Of a DNA stretch of 64,000 nucleotides, positions 11,688-24,841 are shown piece after piece. The notes beneath the pieces are model-generated. The model had not been told where the DNA came from, did no database searches, and saw only the letters and a program-made list of their open reading frames with translations. Made by a program: the position numbers and the translations under genes. The stretch spans positions 3,534,001-3,598,000 of the forward strand of contig NZ_BAAAWN010000001.1 of NCBI RefSeq assembly GCF_039535095.1, read 5' to 3'. This DNA comes from Arthrobacter ramosus (GTDB taxonomy: Bacteria; Actinomycetota; Actinomycetes; Actinomycetales; Micrococcaceae). Every line of letters starts with the position of its first letter. Position 1 is the stretch's first letter.

Positions 11688-11987
11688 TCAGCTTTTTCGG
11701 GCGGTCAGTTTCCGGAGTTGTTCTTCGTGGCGCCTCACGCTGGCAGCGAGGGTGTCGAGTGCGGCGCGGAGGGTGGCGATCTCGTCGGTGAGGCCGGTGA
11801 GGGTGCCGCTGGCGGCGGCGCGGTGACGGTTTTCCTCGATGACGGCCCGGATCATTGGGTCCCGATAGAGGGTGGTCCGGCCCAGGCCGGTGTGGGCGGC
11901 AACGGCGGTGAAGGTGACTGCCTGTCCGTTCCGGAGGAGATCGGCGCAGGCGCGCTCGACGCGGTTGAGAGTGCTCGTGTTGGTCAT
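11688..11987 (-). CDS. tnpC: TnpC-like accessory protein of Tn554-type transposon
   Basis: This 99-residue protein has an N-terminal helix-turn-helix-like region (VTFTAVAAHTGLGRTTLYRD, about residues 23-42). A C-terminal coiled coil follows (EIATLRAALDTLAASVRRHEEQLRKL). That is the pattern of the small protein after the two tyrosine recombinases in Tn554-like units. In Tn554, TnpC influences orientation and frequency of transposition without being strictly catalytic. It overlaps tnpB by four bases, so coupled translation is likely. Confidence 0.8.
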   Translation of the reverse strand: MTNTSTLNRVERACADLLRNGQAVTFTAVAAHTGLGRTTLYRDPMIRAVIEENRHRAAASGTLTGLTDEIATLRAALDTLAASVRRHEEQLRKLTARKS

Positions 11988-13888
11988 CCCGTGGTGGCCT
12001 CGTTGATCAGTTTGTCGAGTCGCGTGATGAGCTGTTTGTGACGGTCGGCTTCGGCGATCCAGCCTCGTTGTTCGGCGTCGCGGGCGAGTGCGTCCGCGTC
12101 AACGCGCTGCGCGGCGAGGATCGGCAGTGAGCTGGGCTCGGCGTGGAAGCTGGGGCAGTGCTCACAAATATTTGCGTAAGCGCAAGCCCCCTGGGCGGGT
12201 GCCCGCAGGCAGAACCCTCCGGCCATGCGGGACTTCAGCAAAGGGGTGTCCTTCCAGTCTTTTCCGCCGGTGATGTCTCTGAGCGGCAGGCTGGTCCTGC
12301 CGCTGTGAGGTGTGAGTGCCTGTTGTTTGGCCAGATCAAGGGCCCGTTCGTACTCGGTGCGCACGGTGGCGTCGAACAGCCGTCCGTAGCGCAGGCTCAT
12401 CTCTGCGGACATGTGGCCCAGCAGCGCCATCAGGGCCTGCAGCGAGACACCGGCGTTGACCAGGGCGGTGGCGTAGGTATGCCGTAGCTGGTGCGGGGTG
12501 ATGTGTTCGAGCCCGGCGAGACCGGCGGCGCGGTCGAGTTCGGCGCGGACCGCTTGTTGCCCGAGCCGGCGTCCGTGGTGGGTGAACAGGAACTGGGCCG
12601 GGCGTCGGTAACGAGGGTGTGGCAGCGGCCGGCCGTGCGATCTGGTGCGGGTTATGTGGTCGATCAGCTCCATGATCTCTCCATCGAGAGGGATCATCCG
12701 CTCGGTGTCCAGCTTGCCGAGGGGGACCTTCAGCCAGCTGCCGTGGCCGGGGACTTCGTGGACGCAGTCCAGTTCAAGATCGAGCAGTTCCCCGATCCGC
12801 AACCCGCAGGCGCGTTGGAGCCGCAGGGCGGCAGCGGCCAGCTCATTTCCCGGGGACTCGGTCAGGACCTGGGTGAGGCGCCGGTCGATATCGACGGGCA
12901 AATAACGCGGCAGTGTTTGCGGGAGCTTGGGAATGTCGTCACGGAACAACAGCCTGCGCGGCGGCGCTTCGGGCCAGTCCCACTCGGTGATGTCGGTCAG
13001 GAACCCCATCAGCGCGAGCACCCGCCGGGACCGGTCAGCGACGGTGATCACCTCACCGTTCTTGGTGTTGACGGCATCGACCATGCTGCTCAGGTAAGGC
13101 TCGATGTGCTTGCCTCGGTCGAGGGCAGCGACGGAGTCCAGATCCGGGTCGATGCCGGCCAGGAACTCACCGAAGTGCTTGAGCCGGGTCGCGATCGTTG
13201 ACACGGTCTTCGGCCGGCAGGTCGCGCGCTTGCGGTCCAGATAGGCGATCATCGCTGCCCGGATCGGCGGACGCACCTGGGCCAGCCGGACGGCGAACGG
13301 GACCGGGCCGCCGGCGCGGGGAAGTTCATCAAGGACTCCGAGGTGGAACAGCACCCGTTGGGCGTTGCTTGCCGCCGCCAGATAGTGGCCGTGTCCCTTG
13401 CCGGTCCGCCCCTGCCTGTCCCGGCAGGCCGCGGTGAACTCGGCCAGATCGGCCAGGGTGAGCCGTTCCAGGCGCCGGCCGGTTTGAATAAGGAGCCTAA
13501 CCGGCACCTGGGAGCCGGTGGCGAACCGGACCCGTTCGGTGAATCCCAGGTCGGCGGCCGCGGTCATGAACCGGTCCAGGTCGGTTGCCAGCGGGCAGTC
13601 TTGGATCTCGCGCCAGATGCTGGAGAGCTTGCGTTCCAGCAGGTAGTCATAGCCTGGCCGCAGGCCTTGGTGCAGCATCAGGAACGTGATGATCGGCCGG
13701 GTAGCTGACCCGGCGGACAAGCGCACCTGCAGCGGCTCGGCCGCCCATTGCCGGGGGTCCGGCCACCGCTGGAAGAACGTCCTGGCCGCTGATGAGTACG
13801 CGGTGTTTCCCCGGCCGGTCCGCCTCAGGTAGTCCAGATACGCGGTGTGCGGGTCACTGCTGGGAACGGATGCGATCGCGAGCGGCAT
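11984..13888 (-). CDS. tnpB: TnpB-like tyrosine recombinase (Tn554 family)
   Basis: This 634-residue site-specific recombinase is almost the length of Tn554 TnpB (630). The catalytic domain contains ACGLRIGELLDLELD (first Arg), HQLRHTYATALVNAG (HxxR) and GHMSAEMSLRYGRL (His and the nucleophilic Tyr). A core-binding N-terminal region precedes it. The C-terminal tail has clustered cysteines (ACAYANICEHC), a possible metal site common in this subgroup. It overlaps tnpA by 35 bases and tnpC by four. It works with TnpA in excision and integration. Confidence 0.9.
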   Translation of the reverse strand: MPLAIASVPSSDPHTAYLDYLRRTGRGNTAYSSAARTFFQRWPDPRQWAAEPLQVRLSAGSATRPIITFLMLHQGLRPGYDYLLERKLSSIWREIQDCPLATDLDRFMTAAADLGFTERVRFATGSQVPVRLLIQTGRRLERLTLADLAEFTAACRDRQGRTGKGHGHYLAAASNAQRVLFHLGVLDELPRAGGPVPFAVRLAQVRPPIRAAMIAYLDRKRATCRPKTVSTIATRLKHFGEFLAGIDPDLDSVAALDRGKHIEPYLSSMVDAVNTKNGEVITVADRSRRVLALMGFLTDITEWDWPEAPPRRLLFRDDIPKLPQTLPRYLPVDIDRRLTQVLTESPGNELAAAALRLQRACGLRIGELLDLELDCVHEVPGHGSWLKVPLGKLDTERMIPLDGEIMELIDHITRTRSHGRPLPHPRYRRPAQFLFTHHGRRLGQQAVRAELDRAAGLAGLEHITPHQLRHTYATALVNAGVSLQALMALLGHMSAEMSLRYGRLFDATVRTEYERALDLAKQQALTPHSGRTSLPLRDITGGKDWKDTPLLKSRMAGGFCLRAPAQGACAYANICEHCPSFHAEPSSLPILAAQRVDADALARDAEQRGWIAEADRHKQLITRLDKLINEATTG

Positions 13889-14939
13889 CGAACTCTGCTT
13901 TCACGTGGGCTGGAGCCAGATGGATGTAGCGGGCAGTGGTATCGACGTGCGCGTGGCCGAGCAAAGCCTGCATCACCGCCAGATCGACGCCCGCCTCGGC
14001 CAGCGCGGTCCCGAACGTGTGCCGCAAGGCGTGCGGGTGACCGCCAACGATTCCGGTCACGCCGCGGTGATAACGGAACACCGTGCGCAGCCCGGCCGCG
14101 GTCAACGGCTGGCCCCGGTTCGGCCCCTTGGCCACGAGAAACAGGCCTGTGCTGCCGGATTCGGGCCGCTCGGCCAGCAGATACACCTGGATGACGGAAG
14201 CCACGTCCGCGTCAAGGGGCACCCGTCGCTCCCGCCGTCCCTTGCCGAGCACCTGCAGCCACCGGCCGCCGATATCGACGTCCGCGACGTCCAGGGCCAG
14301 CACCTCGGCCGAACGCAACCCGCAATAAAGCATCAAACCCGCGATCGCCCGGTCCCGCCAGGTGTGAAAACTGGCCAGCAGCTCGGCCGCATCAGGCTGA
14401 GACAACGCCTTGGGCAACCGACGTGGTTCGCGCAGCCGAAGCGAGGAACGGTTCTTTGGCCGCCGGACCGTATGCGCCAGCATCCCGCTCCGCTCACCGG
14501 ATGCGACCCAACGCGCCTCCCGGCCCTTGGGGACCGGGTTCTTCATCTCCGGGTCCCGCATCGCGGCGAAGGCGAACAAACCTGAGATCGCGGCCAGCCG
14601 ACGGTTGATCGTCGTCGCGGCGTACTGATCCAACCGGCGCCCCGACAGCCTGATCACGTTCGGTCCCGCCCTGCCCGGAACCCGGGCATCGCGGCAGGCA
14701 CGCAGGAACCGAAGCAGCACCTCCGTGCTCACCTCCGCCAGCGGATGCCCGGCGATCAGAAGCCACCGGCAAAACGCCAGCAGGTCATACCCGTAGGAAC
14801 GCACCGTCTTCGGCGAGTAGTTCCTGTCCGTCAGATACCCAAGGTACTCATCCACGAGCTTGAACTGGGGCGCGTCCTGACCGGCCAACGCCCAGCCGCC
14901 GTCACGCTCCTCAAGCGAAAGACCGCAATCACTGCTCAT
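13854..14939 (-). CDS. tnpA: TnpA-like tyrosine recombinase (Tn554 family)
   Basis: At 361 residues this matches Tn554 TnpA in length. A SAM-like core-binding domain (LVDEYLGYLTDRNYSPKTVR) covers about residues 30-110. The catalytic domain shows YCGLRSAEVLALDV (Arg), GKGRRERRVPLD (Lys region), HALRHTFGTALAEAG (HxxR) and GHAHVDTTARYIHL (His and Tyr nucleophile). It is the first gene of the tnpABC operon; its promoter should lie between 14940 and the right end of the element. All catalytic residues are present, so the transposon itself may still move. Confidence 0.92.
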   Translation of the reverse strand: MSSDCGLSLEERDGGWALAGQDAPQFKLVDEYLGYLTDRNYSPKTVRSYGYDLLAFCRWLLIAGHPLAEVSTEVLLRFLRACRDARVPGRAGPNVIRLSGRRLDQYAATTINRRLAAISGLFAFAAMRDPEMKNPVPKGREARWVASGERSGMLAHTVRRPKNRSSLRLREPRRLPKALSQPDAAELLASFHTWRDRAIAGLMLYCGLRSAEVLALDVADVDIGGRWLQVLGKGRRERRVPLDADVASVIQVYLLAERPESGSTGLFLVAKGPNRGQPLTAAGLRTVFRYHRGVTGIVGGHPHALRHTFGTALAEAGVDLAVMQALLGHAHVDTTARYIHLAPAHVKAEFDAARDRIRSQQ

Positions 14940-15023
14940 GAAGAACAGGTGTACCAGCAGTGATCCGGATCACAAGGCAGGTCCCGTGGCATGGCGTGTC
15001 GCTGGCCTGCAGAGACAACCGCA

Positions 15024-15704
15024 TTAGCCGGTTAAGAGGGAGACGTAGGGGCGGTTATGGCTGAGTTCCACGCCGTGGACGGTGAGGGTGTCACGGAGCA
15101 GGTTTGATCTCATGGCCGGGCCTGAATCGGCATGCACGATGAGCGGGGCGCCGTGCCGGGCGATGGCTGTCTCGAACATCTCCGCGGCGAGGTGGTCGGA
15201 CTCGCGTTCCTCCGCCCGCCAGCCGACGATCTCCCGGGAGAAGATGTCCATGATGGAGTACACCTTGAAAACCTTCCCCTGCCACTTTGAATAGATGTCC
15301 GTGATGTCCCAGGACCAGACCTGGCAGGGTCCGGTGGCCTTGACCACCGGCATCTCAGAGGAGCCGCGCTTGACCCCACGCTTGCGCGGGATGATGGGGC
15401 GGGCCTGCTGATCCTCGTGCCCTGCCGCGATCCGCCACCACGTGCGGTTGGAGGCGAGCAGCACGCCGTTGTCCCAGGCGGTGGCGAAGGCATGGTCGAC
15501 GGAGTTGCCCTTCTCCCAACCGGCCAGGATGAGCCCCAGGATCCGGTCGTGATGCGCGGTGCTGATCCGGCATTCGTAGGCCCGGTCGGCCTGGTGGATC
15601 GGGTCCTGCACCGCCGGACGGGGATTGGACCGGTAATGCCAGGTCCCGCGCGACACGCCCGCCAGCTCGAGCGCTGTCCGCTGGGAGCCGATGATCACAC
15701 GCAA
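15024..15704 (-). pseudogene. 5' part of IS3 transposase OrfB, truncated by insertion
   Basis: This encodes the N-terminal HTH-like region (VIIGSQRTALELAGVSRGTW) and the first two catalytic Asp motifs of a DDE transposase: WSWDITDIYSKW and LIVHADSGPAM. The frame continues upstream toward OrfA in the -1 frame, as expected for IS3 programmed frameshifting. Genuine sequence ends at …HNRPYVS; the last few codons and the stop at 15024 come from the end of the inserted transposon. The catalytic Glu lies 3.4 kb away at 11308-11640. Confidence 0.9.
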
Positions 15705-19824: not shown

Positions 19825-20466
19825 ATGTCGGAGCTGCTCACAACCAAACCAAGGTGGCGCGGCTGGATACATGCTGTGGCCACGCCTTTCGCCGTCGCGG
19901 CAGGGATCGTCCTCGTGACGATGGCGCCTACAACGGATCGCAAAATCGCCTCCGCCATCTACGCTTTCACGGGTGTGCTGCTCTTCGGCGTGTCCGCGGT
20001 CTACCACCGCGGCAATTGGGAGCCGAAGACCAGGATGGTCCTCAAGCGCCTGGACCACACCAACATCATGCTGGTGATCGCGGGCAGCTACACACCCCTC
20101 GCGTGGTCGCTGCTGGAGCGCCCGAAGGCCGTGCTCCTGCTGTGGGTGATCTGGTCCGGAGCACTGCTGGGAGTGCTGTTCCGGATTCTCTGGACCGGCG
20201 CTCCACGTTGGCTCTACGTGCCCATCTACGTCGCGCTGGGCTGCGGGGCGCTGTTCTACTTGCCCGAGTTCTTCGCGGCGAACGTTCCGGCCGCGATCCT
20301 GATCTGTGCGGGAGGGGCCCTTTACATCGCTGGCGCTGTTTTCTACGGGATCAAGAAGCCCAACTTCAGTCCGTTGAACTTCGGCTTCCATGAACTCTTC
20401 CACGCACTCACGGTGCTGGCCTTCGCCGCACATTTCGCCGCAATCATGATCGCCGTGCTGAGCTAG
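19825..20466 (+). CDS. hemolysin III / PAQR-family membrane protein (TrhA)
   Basis: This 213-residue protein has seven hydrophobic segments and the PAQR/hemolysin III signatures. These are [19 protein letters not shown] (His near residue 14), [24 protein letters not shown] (about 54-77), and the C-terminal [21 protein letters not shown] with metal-binding His residues. TrhA homologues affect membrane energetics; hemolytic activity is not established for most members. Its last four bases overlap the convergent DUF255 gene. Its position matches Rv1085c. Confidence 0.9.
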
Positions 20467-22679
20467 CCGGCGGCCTCCGTCATCGCTTCAAGGCGCTGGA
20501 CCAGCTCCTCGACAGAGCCAAGCGGCAGGTCACACACCATCCCCCGGCACAAATACACCTGTGGTGAGCCGTCCGCAGCAGCCGTGCGGGCCTCAAGCAG
20601 CGGCACCTCCGGTTCCGTGGCGCGGGACCCGGGGAGCGCGCCGTCGTCGGCGGCTTTTTCGCCAGCCAGACCCAGCTGGACCGCCACCACCAGCCCCGGG
20701 CTCGGCGAGGCCAACAGAGCGCGATGGAGTTCCCGCTGCTTCCGGCCTGGAGGGCCGGAGACGGCGGCCTCTATGGGGCCGGCCACGGCCGCCTGGCCGG
20801 TCGCAAGCAGCCATCCCGCCACCCTAGGCGCCCGCCCGGCTATCGGCGGCAGGAGCGACAGGATGCTGCTTGCCATGGCCCTGTGCTCGTGCGAACCGGA
20901 GTACGCCGCGTAGCTCAGCAACACTCCGGCAAAAGCCGCCGCCCCGCTCGGCGCCGCATTGTCGAAGGGGTCCAGGCCCGCGTGCTGGCCCTGCGCGTTG
21001 AAAACCTGGGCCGACTCCCCCACGGAGTCCGACAACCTGCCGTCCACCACGAAGCGCGCGCAGGCTCCGCTGATCAGCTCCTCCGCGAACCCGTACCAGC
21101 GCCGCTGGCCGGTCACGGCGTAGAGAGCCAGGAAGCCTTCCGCGCAGAACGCGTAGTCTTCCAACAGGCCGCTGATCCCTCTCGCAACGCCGTCGTGCGA
21201 GACCCTGATCAGCACCCCCGCGCCGGGTCTTGAGGTGCCGGCGTTTGAGGCACTGGATGTTTCGGGGCCGGACGCCGGACGCCAATGCACGCGCATCAGG
21301 TACTCGGCCACGTTTTCCGCGGCAGTCACCAGTTCCGGCCTGTCCAGGACCGCACCGGCTTCGGCAAGCGCCGCGATGGCCAGGCCGTTCCAGCCCGCCA
21401 CTACTTTGTCGTCGCGCGCCGGCTGGGGCCGGCCCGAGCGTGCGGCGCGCAAGGCGGGCATGACACGGTTCCACAACCGCGATTCCGCACCGGACAGACG
21501 GCGACCGGGATGGAGCGGAGATCCAAGCTCCGAGACCGTCCCGGACGGCCCCACGTTCATCAGCCGGGCCACGGCCGCGCCGTCCTCCGGGCCAAGCACG
21601 GCCTCGAGGCTCCCAGGAGTCCAGAGATAGGACGCACCTTCGTGATGCACTCCGTCCACCACGGTATCGGCGTCAAGGGAGGAAGCGAGCCCGCCCGGGT
21701 TTGCGGGACCGCCCACGCCGAGCGAATCCAGCATCCAGTCCGCCACCCGCGACGCCACGCTCGCGGCCTCGCCGGCCGGCAGGACCCAGTCGCCCTGGAG
21801 CCGGACCCAGTGGACGTAGGCGCGGAGGAGCTGGGCATTGTCGTAGAGCATCTTCTCGAAATGCGGAACGGACCAATCCGCGGTCACGGAATACCGGGCG
21901 AAGCCGCCGTCGAGCTGGTCACACAGCGCGGAACGGGCCATGGCGGCGAGAGTGCGGCCCGCCATGTCTCGGGCGGCGTCCGAGGTATCCGACGGCACGG
22001 CAGCGTGCCGCATCAGGAATTCAAGAACGGCCGACGGCGGGAACTTGGGAGCGGCGCCGAAGCCGCCGCCGTCGGGGTCTTCCGAACGGGCGAGAAGACG
22101 CACGGCTTCCGACAGCAGGCTTCTGTCCAGGCTTTCGGATGGTCTGTCGAGGAACACCGTCGAGGCGATCTGGGCATTGGCCATGCCGGCGGCGAGCCCC
22201 CGTGCGTTCTGCTCGACGGCGTCCCGGCGTTCCAGCCACGCCTCGCGGACCGCCTCAAGCACCTGGCGGAAGGACGGCCTTCCGGGCTGTGGCGTTGGCG
22301 GGAAATAGGTGCCTGCATGGAAGGCCAAGCCATCGGGCGTCAGGAAGACGGACATGGGCCAGCCGCCCTCGCCGCTGATCGCCTGGGTGGCTGCCATGTA
22401 GATCGAGTCCACGTCGGGGCGTTCTTCGCGGTCTACCTTGACGGCCACGAAGTGGGCGTTCAGGTAGTCGGCGGTGTCCTGGTCTTCGAAGGACTCGTGG
22501 GCCATGACGTGGCACCAATGGCACGCAGCGTAGCCAATGCTCAAGAACACTGGTACGTCACGACGCATTGCTTCAGCAAAAGCCTCATCCCCGAAGGGAA
22601 ACCAATCCACCGGATTGTCCTTGTGCTGCAGGAGATAGCGGCTGTAGGCGCTGGCAAGTCGGTTCACAATTTCCATCAT
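20463..22679 (-). CDS. DUF255 thioredoxin-fold protein (YyaL/spermatogenesis-associated 20-like), chimeric 5' end
   Basis: This 738-residue protein begins with a thioredoxin-like DUF255 domain: [36 protein letters not shown] with a CxxC-like CHWC (about residues 47-60), and [21 protein letters not shown] long alpha/alpha-barrel-like region related to N-acylglucosamine 2-epimerases follows, with [28 protein letters not shown] and [17 protein letters not shown]. The reaction is unknown. The first ~58 codons are visibly less GC-rich than the rest, and a native-looking copy of the same region lies at 24314-24486. The 5' end therefore appears to have been replaced by the island described separately. 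By synteny it matches Rv1084. Confidence 0.92.
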
Positions 22680-22713
22680 CGCTCAGACCCGCGGCAGGGG
22701 CCCAGTGACCTGG

Positions 22714-22841
22714 TGATGCAACTCCTGATGCAACAACCACTCCACCACTTTTTACCGGTGGCAATTGCATCATCCACTCCACCGCTTTTTACCGGTGGCA
22801 ATTGCATCATCCATCACCGTTCGCCAATGACAGTTGCATCA
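22714..22841. repeat. TGATGCAA boxes and a 37-bp tandem repeat
   Basis: TGATGCAA or its complement TTGCATCA occurs at 22714, 22726, 22765, 22802 and 22834. A 37-base unit repeats twice (22740-22776 and 22777-22813, one base different), each with a small hairpin (CCACCG…CGGTGG) followed by TTGCATCA. The same box recurs at 23955 and 24178, flanking the toxin-antitoxin genes. The rest of 22842-23324 holds no gene I can support. Confidence 0.75.
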
Positions 22842-23324
22842 AAGTCAGTGATCGTGCACTACAGATAATCCTGTGATGTTGCGAGCGTTTGGACTCAGAT
22901 CGCAACCAGGAAGCGCGGGCAACAGACAGGCAAGCGGCAGGCTGCCCAGGAGAACCGTAGGACTCGCATACTCTTCCCTGCTCCCGGGGGTGAGGGAAAG
23001 AGCATGTGAAACCCCCGCAGGCTGGCCAGTATGGTGAGCTCTGAGCGCCTCAACAGGTGGGGCTGGCAAGTTCTGGTCAGAAGGTGAGCCAGCGCCGGTG
23101 GCCTCGCGACGAGGCCGATCACTCCGCGAACGTTCCAGCATTGACGTGGCAGACGACCCCAATACGCTCGGTCGTCCGCCCTACACGCTACACCGGCAAC
23201 TACCAATCTGTAGTGCCTGAGGCCTCCTTGCGCGAAGTAGCCCCCGCGCCGTGGAGAGCTTCGCGACAAGACCTCTGCGATGTCTTCCACGGTGGGGAAG
23301 CGCCGCTTCACGATTAGGGCTTGA

Positions 23325-23645
23325 TCAGAGCATTCCCAGAGCGGCCAGCAGTCCCTGATTCACCAGAGTCATCGTCTGCGGGGAGAAGGACGAGACGACG
23401 CCGAGGACTTCATCATCGTAGATGTTCTCAATGTCGTCGCAGACCACGTACCCGTTCATGGCCTCCGTCTCGTTGAGCTTGACGATAGAGGGAATCGCTG
23501 GTTTATGTGACGTGGTCAGACGGGCGGCCAGTACTGAACCCAACTGGGCGTTACGCCTGTTGTTGGAGACAACAACGAAGAGCTTGGGCTCATCCAACCC
23601 CACCTCCGCACGAATGACCTGCCCCCGCAGATACGTAGGGCTCAT
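23325..23645 (-). CDS. MazF/PemK-type toxin (endoribonuclease)
   Basis: This 106-residue protein has the MazF/PemK fold pattern. It opens with YLRGQVIRAEVGLDEPKLFVVVSNN (the family's G-x-V start and P-R/K-x-x-V-V-S-N strand), has VLAARLTTS near residue 40 and a C-terminal VCDDIENIYDDEVLGVVSS. Such toxins cut mRNA at short sequences and halt growth. The last codons of the upstream antitoxin overlap its start by four bases, the usual coupled arrangement. It lies inside the island at 22507-24324. Confidence 0.85.
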   Translation of the reverse strand: MSPTYLRGQVIRAEVGLDEPKLFVVVSNNRRNAQLGSVLAARLTTSHKPAIPSIVKLNETEAMNGYVVCDDIENIYDDEVLGVVSSFSPQTMTLVNQGLLAALGML

Positions 23646-23944
23646 GCTTCGTCAGCCCAGTGCGGACGACGACGGCGAGAGACGCTCTTGCGCTCGGCAA
23701 GATCCTGTTCCTGGGCAATGGCGGCATAACCATCTGCCTCGATCTGTTCGCGGACGGAACGCACTCCGGCTTCCCACACGGCATGCATTACGGCAGCCTC
23801 ACTGCTGGATTCCGCCAGCTGCTCACCGGCAAGTTCCCCGAGCGCCGAACGATGGGCAGGGGACGTCTTCAGGAGCTCCAGGTTCTTAAGGTCCTGTGCC
23901 GTGAGTGAGAAGTTCTTCCGAGTCGGACGTTCGAGAGTAGCCAT
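23642..23944 (-). CDS. antitoxin partner of the MazF-type toxin
   Basis: This 100-residue protein precedes and overlaps the toxin gene by four bases. It is predicted helical, with an N-terminal region that may bind DNA (KNFSLTAQDLKNLELLKTS), a middle helix (SSSEAAVMHAVWEAGVRSVREQ), and a charged C-terminus (KSVSRRRRPHW) that could block the toxin. No named antitoxin family is recognised, so the role is inferred from gene order, size and overlap. Repeated TTGCATCA boxes at its start suggest autoregulation. Confidence 0.75.
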   Translation of the reverse strand: MATLERPTRKNFSLTAQDLKNLELLKTSPAHRSALGELAGEQLAESSSEAAVMHAVWEAGVRSVREQIEADGYAAIAQEQDLAERKSVSRRRRPHWADEA

Positions 23945-24001
23945 GCATCAATAATTGCATCACCTTGTGGATTGCGCAATGAAGCAAAAGAACGCTTCAT
24001 T
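23943..24001. promoter_or_regulatory. candidate autoregulatory region of the toxin-antitoxin operon
   Basis: ATGCATCA (23943-23950, overlapping the antitoxin start codon) and TTGCATCA (23955-23962) are spaced by 12 bases. A perfect 8-bp hairpin AATGAAGC/GCTTCATT lies just upstream at 23978-24001. The position fits an operator bound by the antitoxin. Bases 24002-24313 contain one further TGATGCAA (24178-24185) and no gene I can support. Confidence 0.45.
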
Positions 24002-24313
24002 CAGCGATGCGATCGGTGCGGTTTCCGGAGTCAACGGAAGCCGGGGCAGACCCGAACTCAAAGATGAGACTGTCGGCACCCACTGACACTTCTTCGTGGC
24101 AAACCCGGCCCATCACGAGACCCAGGTACCTGACACGCGCCGAGTCAAGGTTTGGACGGTCAACGTCGATCACTCCGTGATGCAACAAGGTAATGCATTA
24201 GGGCGCAGAATCGATGTCCTCAAGCGTCCTAGCACGACCGTCAAAAGCACGAAAAATGCCTAGGTCACGGGCGAGACGGGTTCAGTCGCCTGTAATCTCG
24301 GGACCTATCGGTC

Positions 24314-24486
24314 ACGTGGCACCAGTGGCACGCGGCATAGCCGATAGAGAGAAAAACGGGAACATCGCGGGCCGCCGCGAACGCAAAGGCCTCATCGCCG
24401 AACGGCCGCCAGTGCACCGGATTGTTCGCATGCTGGCGGAGATAGGCGGACGGTTCCAAGCCGAGGGCGTTGGATGCCCCCGGCCA
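24314..24486 (-). pseudogene. stranded native 5' end of the DUF255 gene
   Basis: The minus strand encodes [16 protein letters not shown], then [18 protein letters not shown] and [14 protein letters not shown]. This is the conserved N-terminus of DUF255 proteins, parallel to the intact copy at 20463-22679. Homology stops exactly after CHWCHV, where the next codons (TDRSRDYRR…) are unrelated. Its place directly downstream of the small membrane-protein gene and mca is the expected native position. No clear start codon remains in frame; TTG before GAACCG is possible. Confidence 0.85.
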
Positions 24487-24505
24487 TTACCGGGTGGTGC
24501 CCGGG

Positions 24506-24841
24506 TCAGCGGGCTGCGGAGCCGGCATCGCCGTCGGACTCTTCAACGCCCGGCTTGCCCGAGACGACGCCGCCGGTCCTATCGCTGTCAGTCTCAGCGC
24601 CGTCAGTCTCAGCGCCGTCGGTCTCGCCGACAAGGGCTTCCTCAACCTGGGCGCGATAGCGGACCCGCCGGATCCGGCGGACCATGTCAACGATCAGAAA
24701 GGTCGTGAGCACCACGATGAAGGCAGTCAGGACGAAACCCCAGGTCCCCGGGGTCACCTGGTCTTCCGACAAGCCGGGACGCAGCGACGGGGTCGGGGTT
24801 GGCGACGGGGTCGTGGCCAGGGCGATGAGAAAGTGGTGCAC
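24506..24841 (-). CDS. small single-pass membrane protein downstream of mca
   Basis: This 111-residue protein has a short Pro/Ser/Thr-rich N-terminus and one membrane helix at about residues 34-53 (WGFVLTAFIVVLTTFLIVDM). A basic stop-transfer stretch (RRIRRVRYRAQ) and an acidic tail with a short TDGAE repeat follow. It has no recognised domain. Its location between mca and the DUF255 gene matches Rv1083, supporting a real, conserved gene of unknown function. Confidence 0.8.
   Translation of the reverse strand: MHHFLIALATTPSPTPTPSLRPGLSEDQVTPGTWGFVLTAFIVVLTTFLIVDMVRRIRRVRYRAQVEEALVGETDGAETDGAETDSDRTGGVVSGKPGVEESDGDAGSAAR

Follow-up and report, generated by a model that had tools for sequence, protein, structure and literature searches.

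How does a conserved gene come to have two 5′ ends, one joined to its body and the other stranded 1.8 kb away? The question is raised by a DUF255 gene in a 64,000-nucleotide stretch of Arthrobacter ramosus DNA (positions 3,534,001 to 3,598,000 of NZ_BAAAWN010000001.1, assembly GCF_039535095.1; hereafter the window, with coordinates counted from its first letter), where an island with a toxin-antitoxin (TA) pair separates the whole gene from a second copy of its 5′ end. The source genome, G000, is one contig of 5.25 Mb. Chance does not account for two 5′ ends in direct repeat 1.8 kb apart at a site that is empty in the eight closest relatives. Our answer, which we regard as likely, is that the codons for the CHWCH motif of DUF255 are an attachment site (attB) for integrative elements, and that the island is a short, integrase-less member of a group that replaces the 5′ end of the gene it enters.

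Two 5′ Ends and an Empty Site

The intact gene lies at 20463-22679 on the minus strand, as a first-pass annotation made from the letters alone had stated; it encodes 738 aa and matches PF03190 at 241.6 bits. The annotation had also placed a separate copy of the N-terminus at 24314-24486, exactly at the predicted native start. A second copy is indeed present on the same strand, ends at 24314 and, like the first, is matched by PF03190, but the native start is further upstream, at the ATG 24526-24528, which overlaps the preceding gene; an in-frame TAA at 24487-24489 renders this stranded copy (24314-24528) dead. The preceding gene is an open reading frame (ORF) at 24506-24841 on the minus strand, and in the eight closest relatives, too, it comes immediately before DUF255. 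The end of the stranded copy at 24314 lies 1,807 bp upstream of the matching point in the intact gene, in the same orientation, and the two 5′ copies align over 63 nt at 78% and 56 nt at 73%. At their CHWCHV codons both carry ACGTGGCACCA, at 22507-22517 and 24314-24324, again in the same orientation and again as proposed; read on the minus strand, this shared 11-mer, TGGTGCCACGT, forms an attR-like core at the first position and, at the end of the stranded copy, an attL-like core at the second.

What lies between the copies? The island proper (22680-24313) is about 1.63 kb long, or 1.8 kb with the 5′ end now attached to the gene, and has a single match in the whole genome. It contains a PF02452 toxin and two 37-nt direct repeats; neither a recombinase nor a phage gene was recognised among its scanned ORFs, which agrees with the earlier description of a MazF-type pair and repeats with no recombinase. 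The first 58 codons of the intact gene (22507-22679, minus strand) had been called GC-poorer and divergent, and they are: their GC content is 54.6%, against 69.7% in the rest of the gene, with 58.5% in the island and 63.8% in the window.

Which of the two 5′ ends is native? DUF255 was matched in 77 of 149 relatives, and in all of the eight closest (G054, G012, G045, G043, G051, G065, G022, and G079) the empty site that the first-pass annotation had asked for is present: the island is absent, the upstream flank matches down to 24314, and the gene runs on. When the island flanks are joined, they align with all eight, and no native base is lost at the join. Beside it, the joined flanks match G054 at 100/100 and 98/100 bases, the latter being the first bases past the junction in the gene body, whereas the present 5′ end matches at only 68/100; a 132-nt comparison with G054 gives 99.2% identity for the stranded copy and 71.2% for the 5′ end of the intact gene. 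Along the intact gene, identity to G054 is 43-75% per comparison window up to codon 52 and 94-100% beyond, jumping at codons 52-58, and remains at 96-100% over codons 58-148. The stop codon in the stranded copy is lacking in G054 and G012. Thus, the stranded 5′ end is native, as is the body from about codon 58/59 to codon 738 (20463-22506, minus strand), and codons 1-58 of the intact gene are foreign.

Relatives of the New 5′ End

The 58-residue N-terminus of the intact gene is matched in 113 of 206 genus genomes, but the same kind of 5′ end occurs in four, G000, G041, G066, and G516 (a count that leaves out G581, matched in two frames, and a weak match in G039), and G000 alone has two long N-terminus copies. 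Beyond the genus, 395 family genomes were compared; G360 has the best N-terminus match (85%), followed by others at 75-80%. A 101-base DNA query against 345 family genomes again singles out G360 (93% over 70 nt); the next longest matches reach 75-77% over 65-75 nt, and the rest span 26-40 nt. G000 and G360 are 88-100% identical per comparison window over codons 5-28, as against 71.6% for the gene bodies.

Separate phylogenies of the two parts of the gene, proposed earlier as a check, disagree. In a FastTree of codons 6-58, G000, G041, G066, and G516 group together (0.88), with G360 next (0.79). In the tree of codons 59-148, G000 joins G054 and G012 (0.95), and G516 falls in a ten-member clade around G000 (0.98); G360 stays with its own genus (0.998), and G041 and G066 belong to a clade with four genomes that have ordinary 5′ ends (0.91). 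The conflict implies that this 5′ end moved between genomes, although the copies in G041 and G066 could stem from one shared event. The sequence upstream of it differs from case to case: the TA pair in G000, about 560 bp in G516, 129 bp in G041, and a glycosyltransferase region in G360. In G066 (L034, 350-14406), the upstream gene is separated from DUF255 by a stretch of about 14 kb with catabolic genes that look hydantoinase-like and amidohydrolase-like by eye; the same inspection showed no integrase there. A database protein, P0001, combines this kind of 5′ end (95%) with a body resembling that in the window.

The first-pass annotation had named two outcomes contrary to its idea, vertical descent of the same arrangement and two copies equally close to the native lineage. 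Neither occurred: the site is empty in all eight of the closest relatives, and the copies fall in different clades.

The Same Junction in Other Genera

Extra DUF255 5′ ends were sought in fetched loci (207 with at least one DUF255 5′ end) and by a regular-expression scan; the Nocardioides, UBA4001, Nanopelagicales, Pedococcus, and L127 loci described below come from the best 80 of 489 matches of a contig scan, which missed the close 5′ ends. The loci were picked by 5′-end similarity, and the counts of stranded copies are therefore no frequencies. Twelve stranded copies were found in ten cellular genomes, G000 included, and eight of the twelve, from several actinobacterial groups, share one end point within the CHWCH codons, TGGTGCCACG. 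Besides the copy in G000, these are copy 1 of G760 (from another family of the same order), one in Nocardioides sp. J54 (L138), one in the Nocardioidaceae genome UBA4001 (L132), whose intact gene lies beyond the available stretch, two in a metagenome-assembled genome of Candidatus Nanopelagicales (L148), one in Nocardioides sp. LHD-245 (L182), with one base changed (TGGTGTCACG), and a decayed copy in Pedococcus sp. 5OH_020 (L187). LHD-245 and G760 also share AGGTTGAG just past a CHWCH junction.

The earlier suggestion that the TA cassette might recur at CHWC codons elsewhere thus stands in part: the arrangement does recur in other genera, with other cargo, but the same MazF cassette is not there. 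An order-wide search matched 170 of 396 genomes, of which G000, G184, and G760 have more than one match; the two in G184 are both long frames. In G760 (L224, 3160-6860), three DUF255 5′ ends stand in a row, and by eye the roughly 100 bases leading up to the junction look the same in the intact copy and in stranded copy 1, whereas the earlier bases differ, as if converted.

A Putative Integrase and Varied Cargo

Which enzyme might recognize such a site? A candidate comes from J54, whose 26-kb island, bounded on its contig by the stranded end (2015) and the intact gene (28063), resembles an actinomycete integrative and conjugative element (AICE) and encodes RepSA (PF20199), FtsK (PF01580), a type IIG-like restriction enzyme (PF18135; PADLOC), a helicase, and an AAA protein. 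About 150 bp from the new 5′ end lies a gene for a 468-aa protein that matches PF00589 (21.5 bits) and PF14659 (21.6 bits), both below cut-off with E about 2e-4; GLRLGE, NLRHHAAT, and NHYVR in its sequence were taken by eye for tyrosine-recombinase boxes. We consider this protein a putative tyrosine integrase. LHD-245 (54% over 142 aa) and G760 (49-83%, three short pieces) retain fragments of this protein next to their new 5′ ends. G868 has a homolog, 70% identical over 420 aa and now divided into two ORFs, upstream of its DUF255 gene; the 40 kb read around it showed no stranded copy. The putative integrase or its remains are therefore present beside DUF255 in four genomes other than G000. In searches with the J54 protein, phages were unmatched, viral contigs gave nothing that was confirmed, and plasmids gave a single weak match.

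The cargo is diverse. LHD-245 and G760 share a helix-turn-helix (HTH) protein and a nucleotidyltransferase-like protein (79% and 81% identity); the latter, in LHD-245, has no Pfam, PADLOC, or NCBIfam match, and its label as a toxin is therefore inferred. LHD-245 also carries AbiH (PF14253), UBA4001 carries AbiEi and AbiEii, and the downstream island of G760 encodes a DUF4143 protein matching the PADLOC candidate PDC-S01; no defense gene was found in the four ORFs scanned in the Nanopelagicales islands. In all, TA or defense cargo is present in five of eight islands inspected (G000, the upstream island of G760, LHD-245, UBA4001, and J54), a count that takes the HTH and nucleotidyltransferase-like genes to be a TA pair and assigns AbiE of UBA4001 to an island although the far end of that island was not seen.

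How the Island May Have Entered

The first-pass annotation had proposed that an element, having entered a coding sequence at a conserved motif, makes the gene whole again with a 5′ end that it carries. The empty site in all eight of the closest relatives, the discordant trees, and the recurrence of the junction all speak for this idea, and the island indeed supplies the new 5′ end and has the original one at its outer boundary. In the model that we favor, a circular form of the element would carry a start of its own and the first ~58 codons of DUF255 up to TGGTGCCACG (attP). Insertion would follow from site-specific recombination between this motif and its chromosomal copy; the native 5′ end would be left stranded at the far edge (attL) and the element's 5′ end joined in frame to the native body (attR), so that the gene stays whole. 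Because the native start overlaps the upstream gene, insertion would uncouple DUF255 from it; the new 5′ end would bring its own start and upstream region. A consensus scan found no sigma-70-type promoter, a result that says little for this phylum. In G000, the element would have been reduced to a MazF-type pair, having either lost its recombinase or been moved by one acting in trans, and the pair may keep it from being lost. The circle, a recombinase acting here, expression of the new 5′ end, and stabilization by the TA pair are all inferred. Site-specific integration is the simplest account of equal end points across genera, an adjoining integrase-like gene, and a join at which no native base is lost.

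Several results weigh against this account. Four of the twelve stranded copies end elsewhere: copy 2 of G760, those of G314 and G325 (similar sequences from one genus), and the decayed copy in L127. The element-side bases after CACG differ among most cases. The J54 protein scores 21.5 bits where the PF00589 cut-off is 27.1, and a genome-wide PF00589 search of J54, with nine matches, did not report it. No convincing trace of it was found in the islands of G066, G360, G516, UBA4001, and the Nanopelagicales genome or in that of G000, whose genome has 26 PF00589 matches and no match to the PF07508 recombinase family. Above all, not every 5′ end of this kind has the same junction: no stranded copy was found in G041, G066, G516, or G360, and the switch to local sequence comes before CHWCH, around codon 28-36 in G066 and G360 and around codon 44 in G516 (in G041, which has no close relative in the set, it could not be placed). 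These early switch points fit homologous recombination and are the chief result against one site-specific mechanism for all cases.

Could homologous recombination with foreign DNA account for the island in G000 as well? In this scenario, a TA pair sat upstream of another species' DUF255, a crossover took place in the conserved codons, and the other side was joined illegitimately where the CHWCH codons had been broken, a case of homology-facilitated illegitimate recombination. In its favor, no part of the gene is more conserved than the stretch that holds the crossover, the related 5′ ends of G066, G516, and G360 switch earlier and come with no stranded copy, and a recombinase was not found in the island. 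An illegitimate joint, however, is hard to reconcile with the absence of any lost native base, with the identical end point of eight of twelve stranded copies in different genera, and with the presence in J54, LHD-245, and G760 of an integrase-like gene, whole or in remnants, next to the new 5′ end. We therefore regard homologous recombination as unlikely to have produced this island.

DUF255 Broken in Viral Contigs

A different enzyme is suggested by viral contigs. A pattern scan for the CHWCH codons returned six, among which L226-L228 (the same sequence) have a 5′ end cut at CHWCHV; in a second scan, L254, L261, and L278 are cut at CHW or CHWC. Large serine recombinases are encoded beside the DUF255 piece, in full in L254 and L251 and in part in L278 and L226; the hosts of these four look like Bacillota, judging by their AT-rich sequence. 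Elsewhere in the L254 and L278 records there is a tyrosine recombinase as well, so either enzyme may have acted; no further DUF255 piece was found in the far ends read of these two records. In L248, L251, L257, and L262, a foreign stretch of ~15-45 bases in or just before the CHW codons brings a stop codon.

Could the island be what is left of a phage that integrated by means of a large serine recombinase and lost everything except the TA pair? The full recombinases in L254 and L251, and the partial ones in L278 and L226, stand beside DUF255 5′ ends broken at or near CHW, as such an origin would have it. Yet the viral break points vary and are displaced from the actinobacterial one by as much as about 5 bases or more, and the island has no recognised phage gene, nor G000 a PF07508 match; a phage remnant is accordingly quite improbable. 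A tandem duplication of the gene's own 5′ end, later split by an insertion, would explain two copies in the same orientation but is contradicted by the data: the nearest relative is matched at 68/100 bases by the intact 5′ end and at 100/100 by the stranded one, and the copies belong to different clades.

Site-specific integration at CHWCH thus remains our preferred reading, and it can be extended into a broader one that is somewhat less likely than not. In it, two kinds of enzyme, tyrosine integrases in Actinomycetota and large serine recombinases of phages whose hosts are probably Bacillota, would independently have come to use the CHWCH active-site codons, making them a general attachment site and a landing place for TA and defense islands that swap the 5′ end. 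Some of these islands, the one in G000 included, would be bare TA cassettes moving with no recombinase of their own.

Several scan matches were set aside. MT839133.1 (L232; 4,540 bp), named a bacteriophage, ends in a DUF255 N-terminus, but its ORFs read as the end of a bacterial contig. Among 81 matches classed as odd, 59 belong to an unrelated marine phage protein (QHNDNPVDWTTIT); of the further odd ones, L137, L159, L189, and L221 are intact DUF255 variants, and L142 is a contig end. The matches of an integrase motif scan were judged false; that scan also missed the large serine recombinases, which were found by reading ORFs.

Relation to Known Elements

How new is this arrangement? The SXT element has its integration site at the 5′ end of prfC, and the dusA islands of Vibrio are reportedly the subject of a separate paper. 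Cis-mobilizable elements (CIMEs) have att sites and no integrase; the island resembles them in that its ends look like those of an integrative element and no recombinase lies inside. Its core is the same as in J54, LHD-245, and others, whereas the element-side arm differs, and a search of the genus genomes turned up no parent element sharing its ends.

The closest parallel, as far as the consulted parts of the sources go, is provided by the dusA islands of Proteobacteria, which replace the dusA 5′ end, leave the original one at their outer boundary, and were shown by PCR to excise (PMC4482086, in part). Likenesses are entry at the 5′ end of a conserved protein gene, diverse cargo, and imperfect direct repeats at the ends; here, by contrast, the target is CHWCH of DUF255 (PF03190) instead of dusA, dusB, or dusC, the hosts are Actinomycetota and not Alpha-, Beta-, and Gammaproteobacteria, and the G000 island has no integrase gene next to the new 5′ end (PMC4482086, in part). 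As in tRNA-gene islands detected by Islander, a restored target and a displaced fragment mark the two ends, but the target is a protein gene whose 5′ end is replaced, and Islander requires an integrase (PMC4383910, in part). The J54 island shares with AICEs RepSA, FtsK, and an integrase-like protein (PF00589 below cut-off); tyrosine-recombinase AICEs, however, mostly occupy tRNA genes in the survey cited, and the G000 island has no Rep, FtsK, or integrase (PMC3218068, in part). SXT, too, is an integrative element kept by a TA pair, a role that the pair may have here, but it is ~100 kb long, with its own integrase and a different pair (PMC2654960, in part). In the open-access literature, where DUF255 may go by other names, we found no paper on DUF255/YyaL as an attachment site, and passages from one on Mycobacterium prophage sites (PMC10654092) make no mention of thioredoxin.

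Replacement of a 5′ end is thus already known in principle from dusA; here the target gene, the host phylum, and the bare TA form are different, and, as far as we found, no such replacement has been described for DUF255. The locus adds to the known 5′-end replacements by mobile elements a precise, testable attachment site in a conserved protein motif, along with a candidate integrase for which attB and attP were deduced. Since CHWCH is highly conserved, such islands could pass between genera; sites of this kind would also be useful for vector building.

The Toxin-Antitoxin Pair and the Repeats

The toxin gene (23325-23645, minus strand, 106 aa) belongs to the MazF/PemK family by its PF02452 score of 33.5 bits (cut-off 23.1), with no NCBIfam match. 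Directly upstream, a small ORF (23642-23944, minus strand, 100 aa) overlaps the toxin start with its stop by 4 nt, the position expected of an antitoxin; it has zero matches in Pfam, PADLOC, and NCBIfam, so its assignment follows from position. From their sequences and arrangement, the two genes form a putative type II TA pair. The toxin has 374 homologs at E ≤ 0.001 and hence says little about the element; the antitoxin has 2 protein clusters at the same threshold in a large protein database, is unmatched in plasmid and phage collections, and has no confirmed match in a viral-contig scan. Of the island DNA, only the DUF255-end pieces were matched in the plasmid collection.

An 8-mer, TTGCATCA/TGATGCAA, occurs seven times in the island and nowhere else in the window. 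Five copies precede the new DUF255 start (22714-22841), where two 37-nt direct repeats also lie (22729-22802), and two more, at 23955 and 24178, stand before the antitoxin gene, for an overall span of 22714-24185. The exact 8-mer is present near four of ten antitoxin homologs inspected (L094, L095, L099, and L101), with a 7-mer at L097. The 7-mer appears in 18 of 231 DUF255 upstream regions, duplicates and mis-set starts included, against 3.6 expected from shuffles; its carriers include G041, G360, and G760 and three genus members with an ordinary 5′ end (L028, L051, and L053). The idea that TTGCATCA is exclusive to this element was rejected, given its presence upstream of antitoxin homologs and some other DUF255 genes, including ones in other genera. 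The motif may be an operator common to the antitoxin gene and DUF255.

Other Observations

In G314 (L223, 3000-8400), as also in G325 (L225), a second DUF255 5′ end, cut near codon 33, lies with an mca fragment 5.1 kb upstream of the intact gene; by eye, the interval between the two 5′ ends in G314 contains two-component and ABC-transporter-like ORFs. Elsewhere in the window, at 11984-15704, two overlapping tyrosine recombinases (634 and 361 aa, minus strand) accompany an ORF with an IS3-like integrase core, and a genome search located a second tyrosine recombinase pair, with equal scores, at G000:C1:4735516-4737532.

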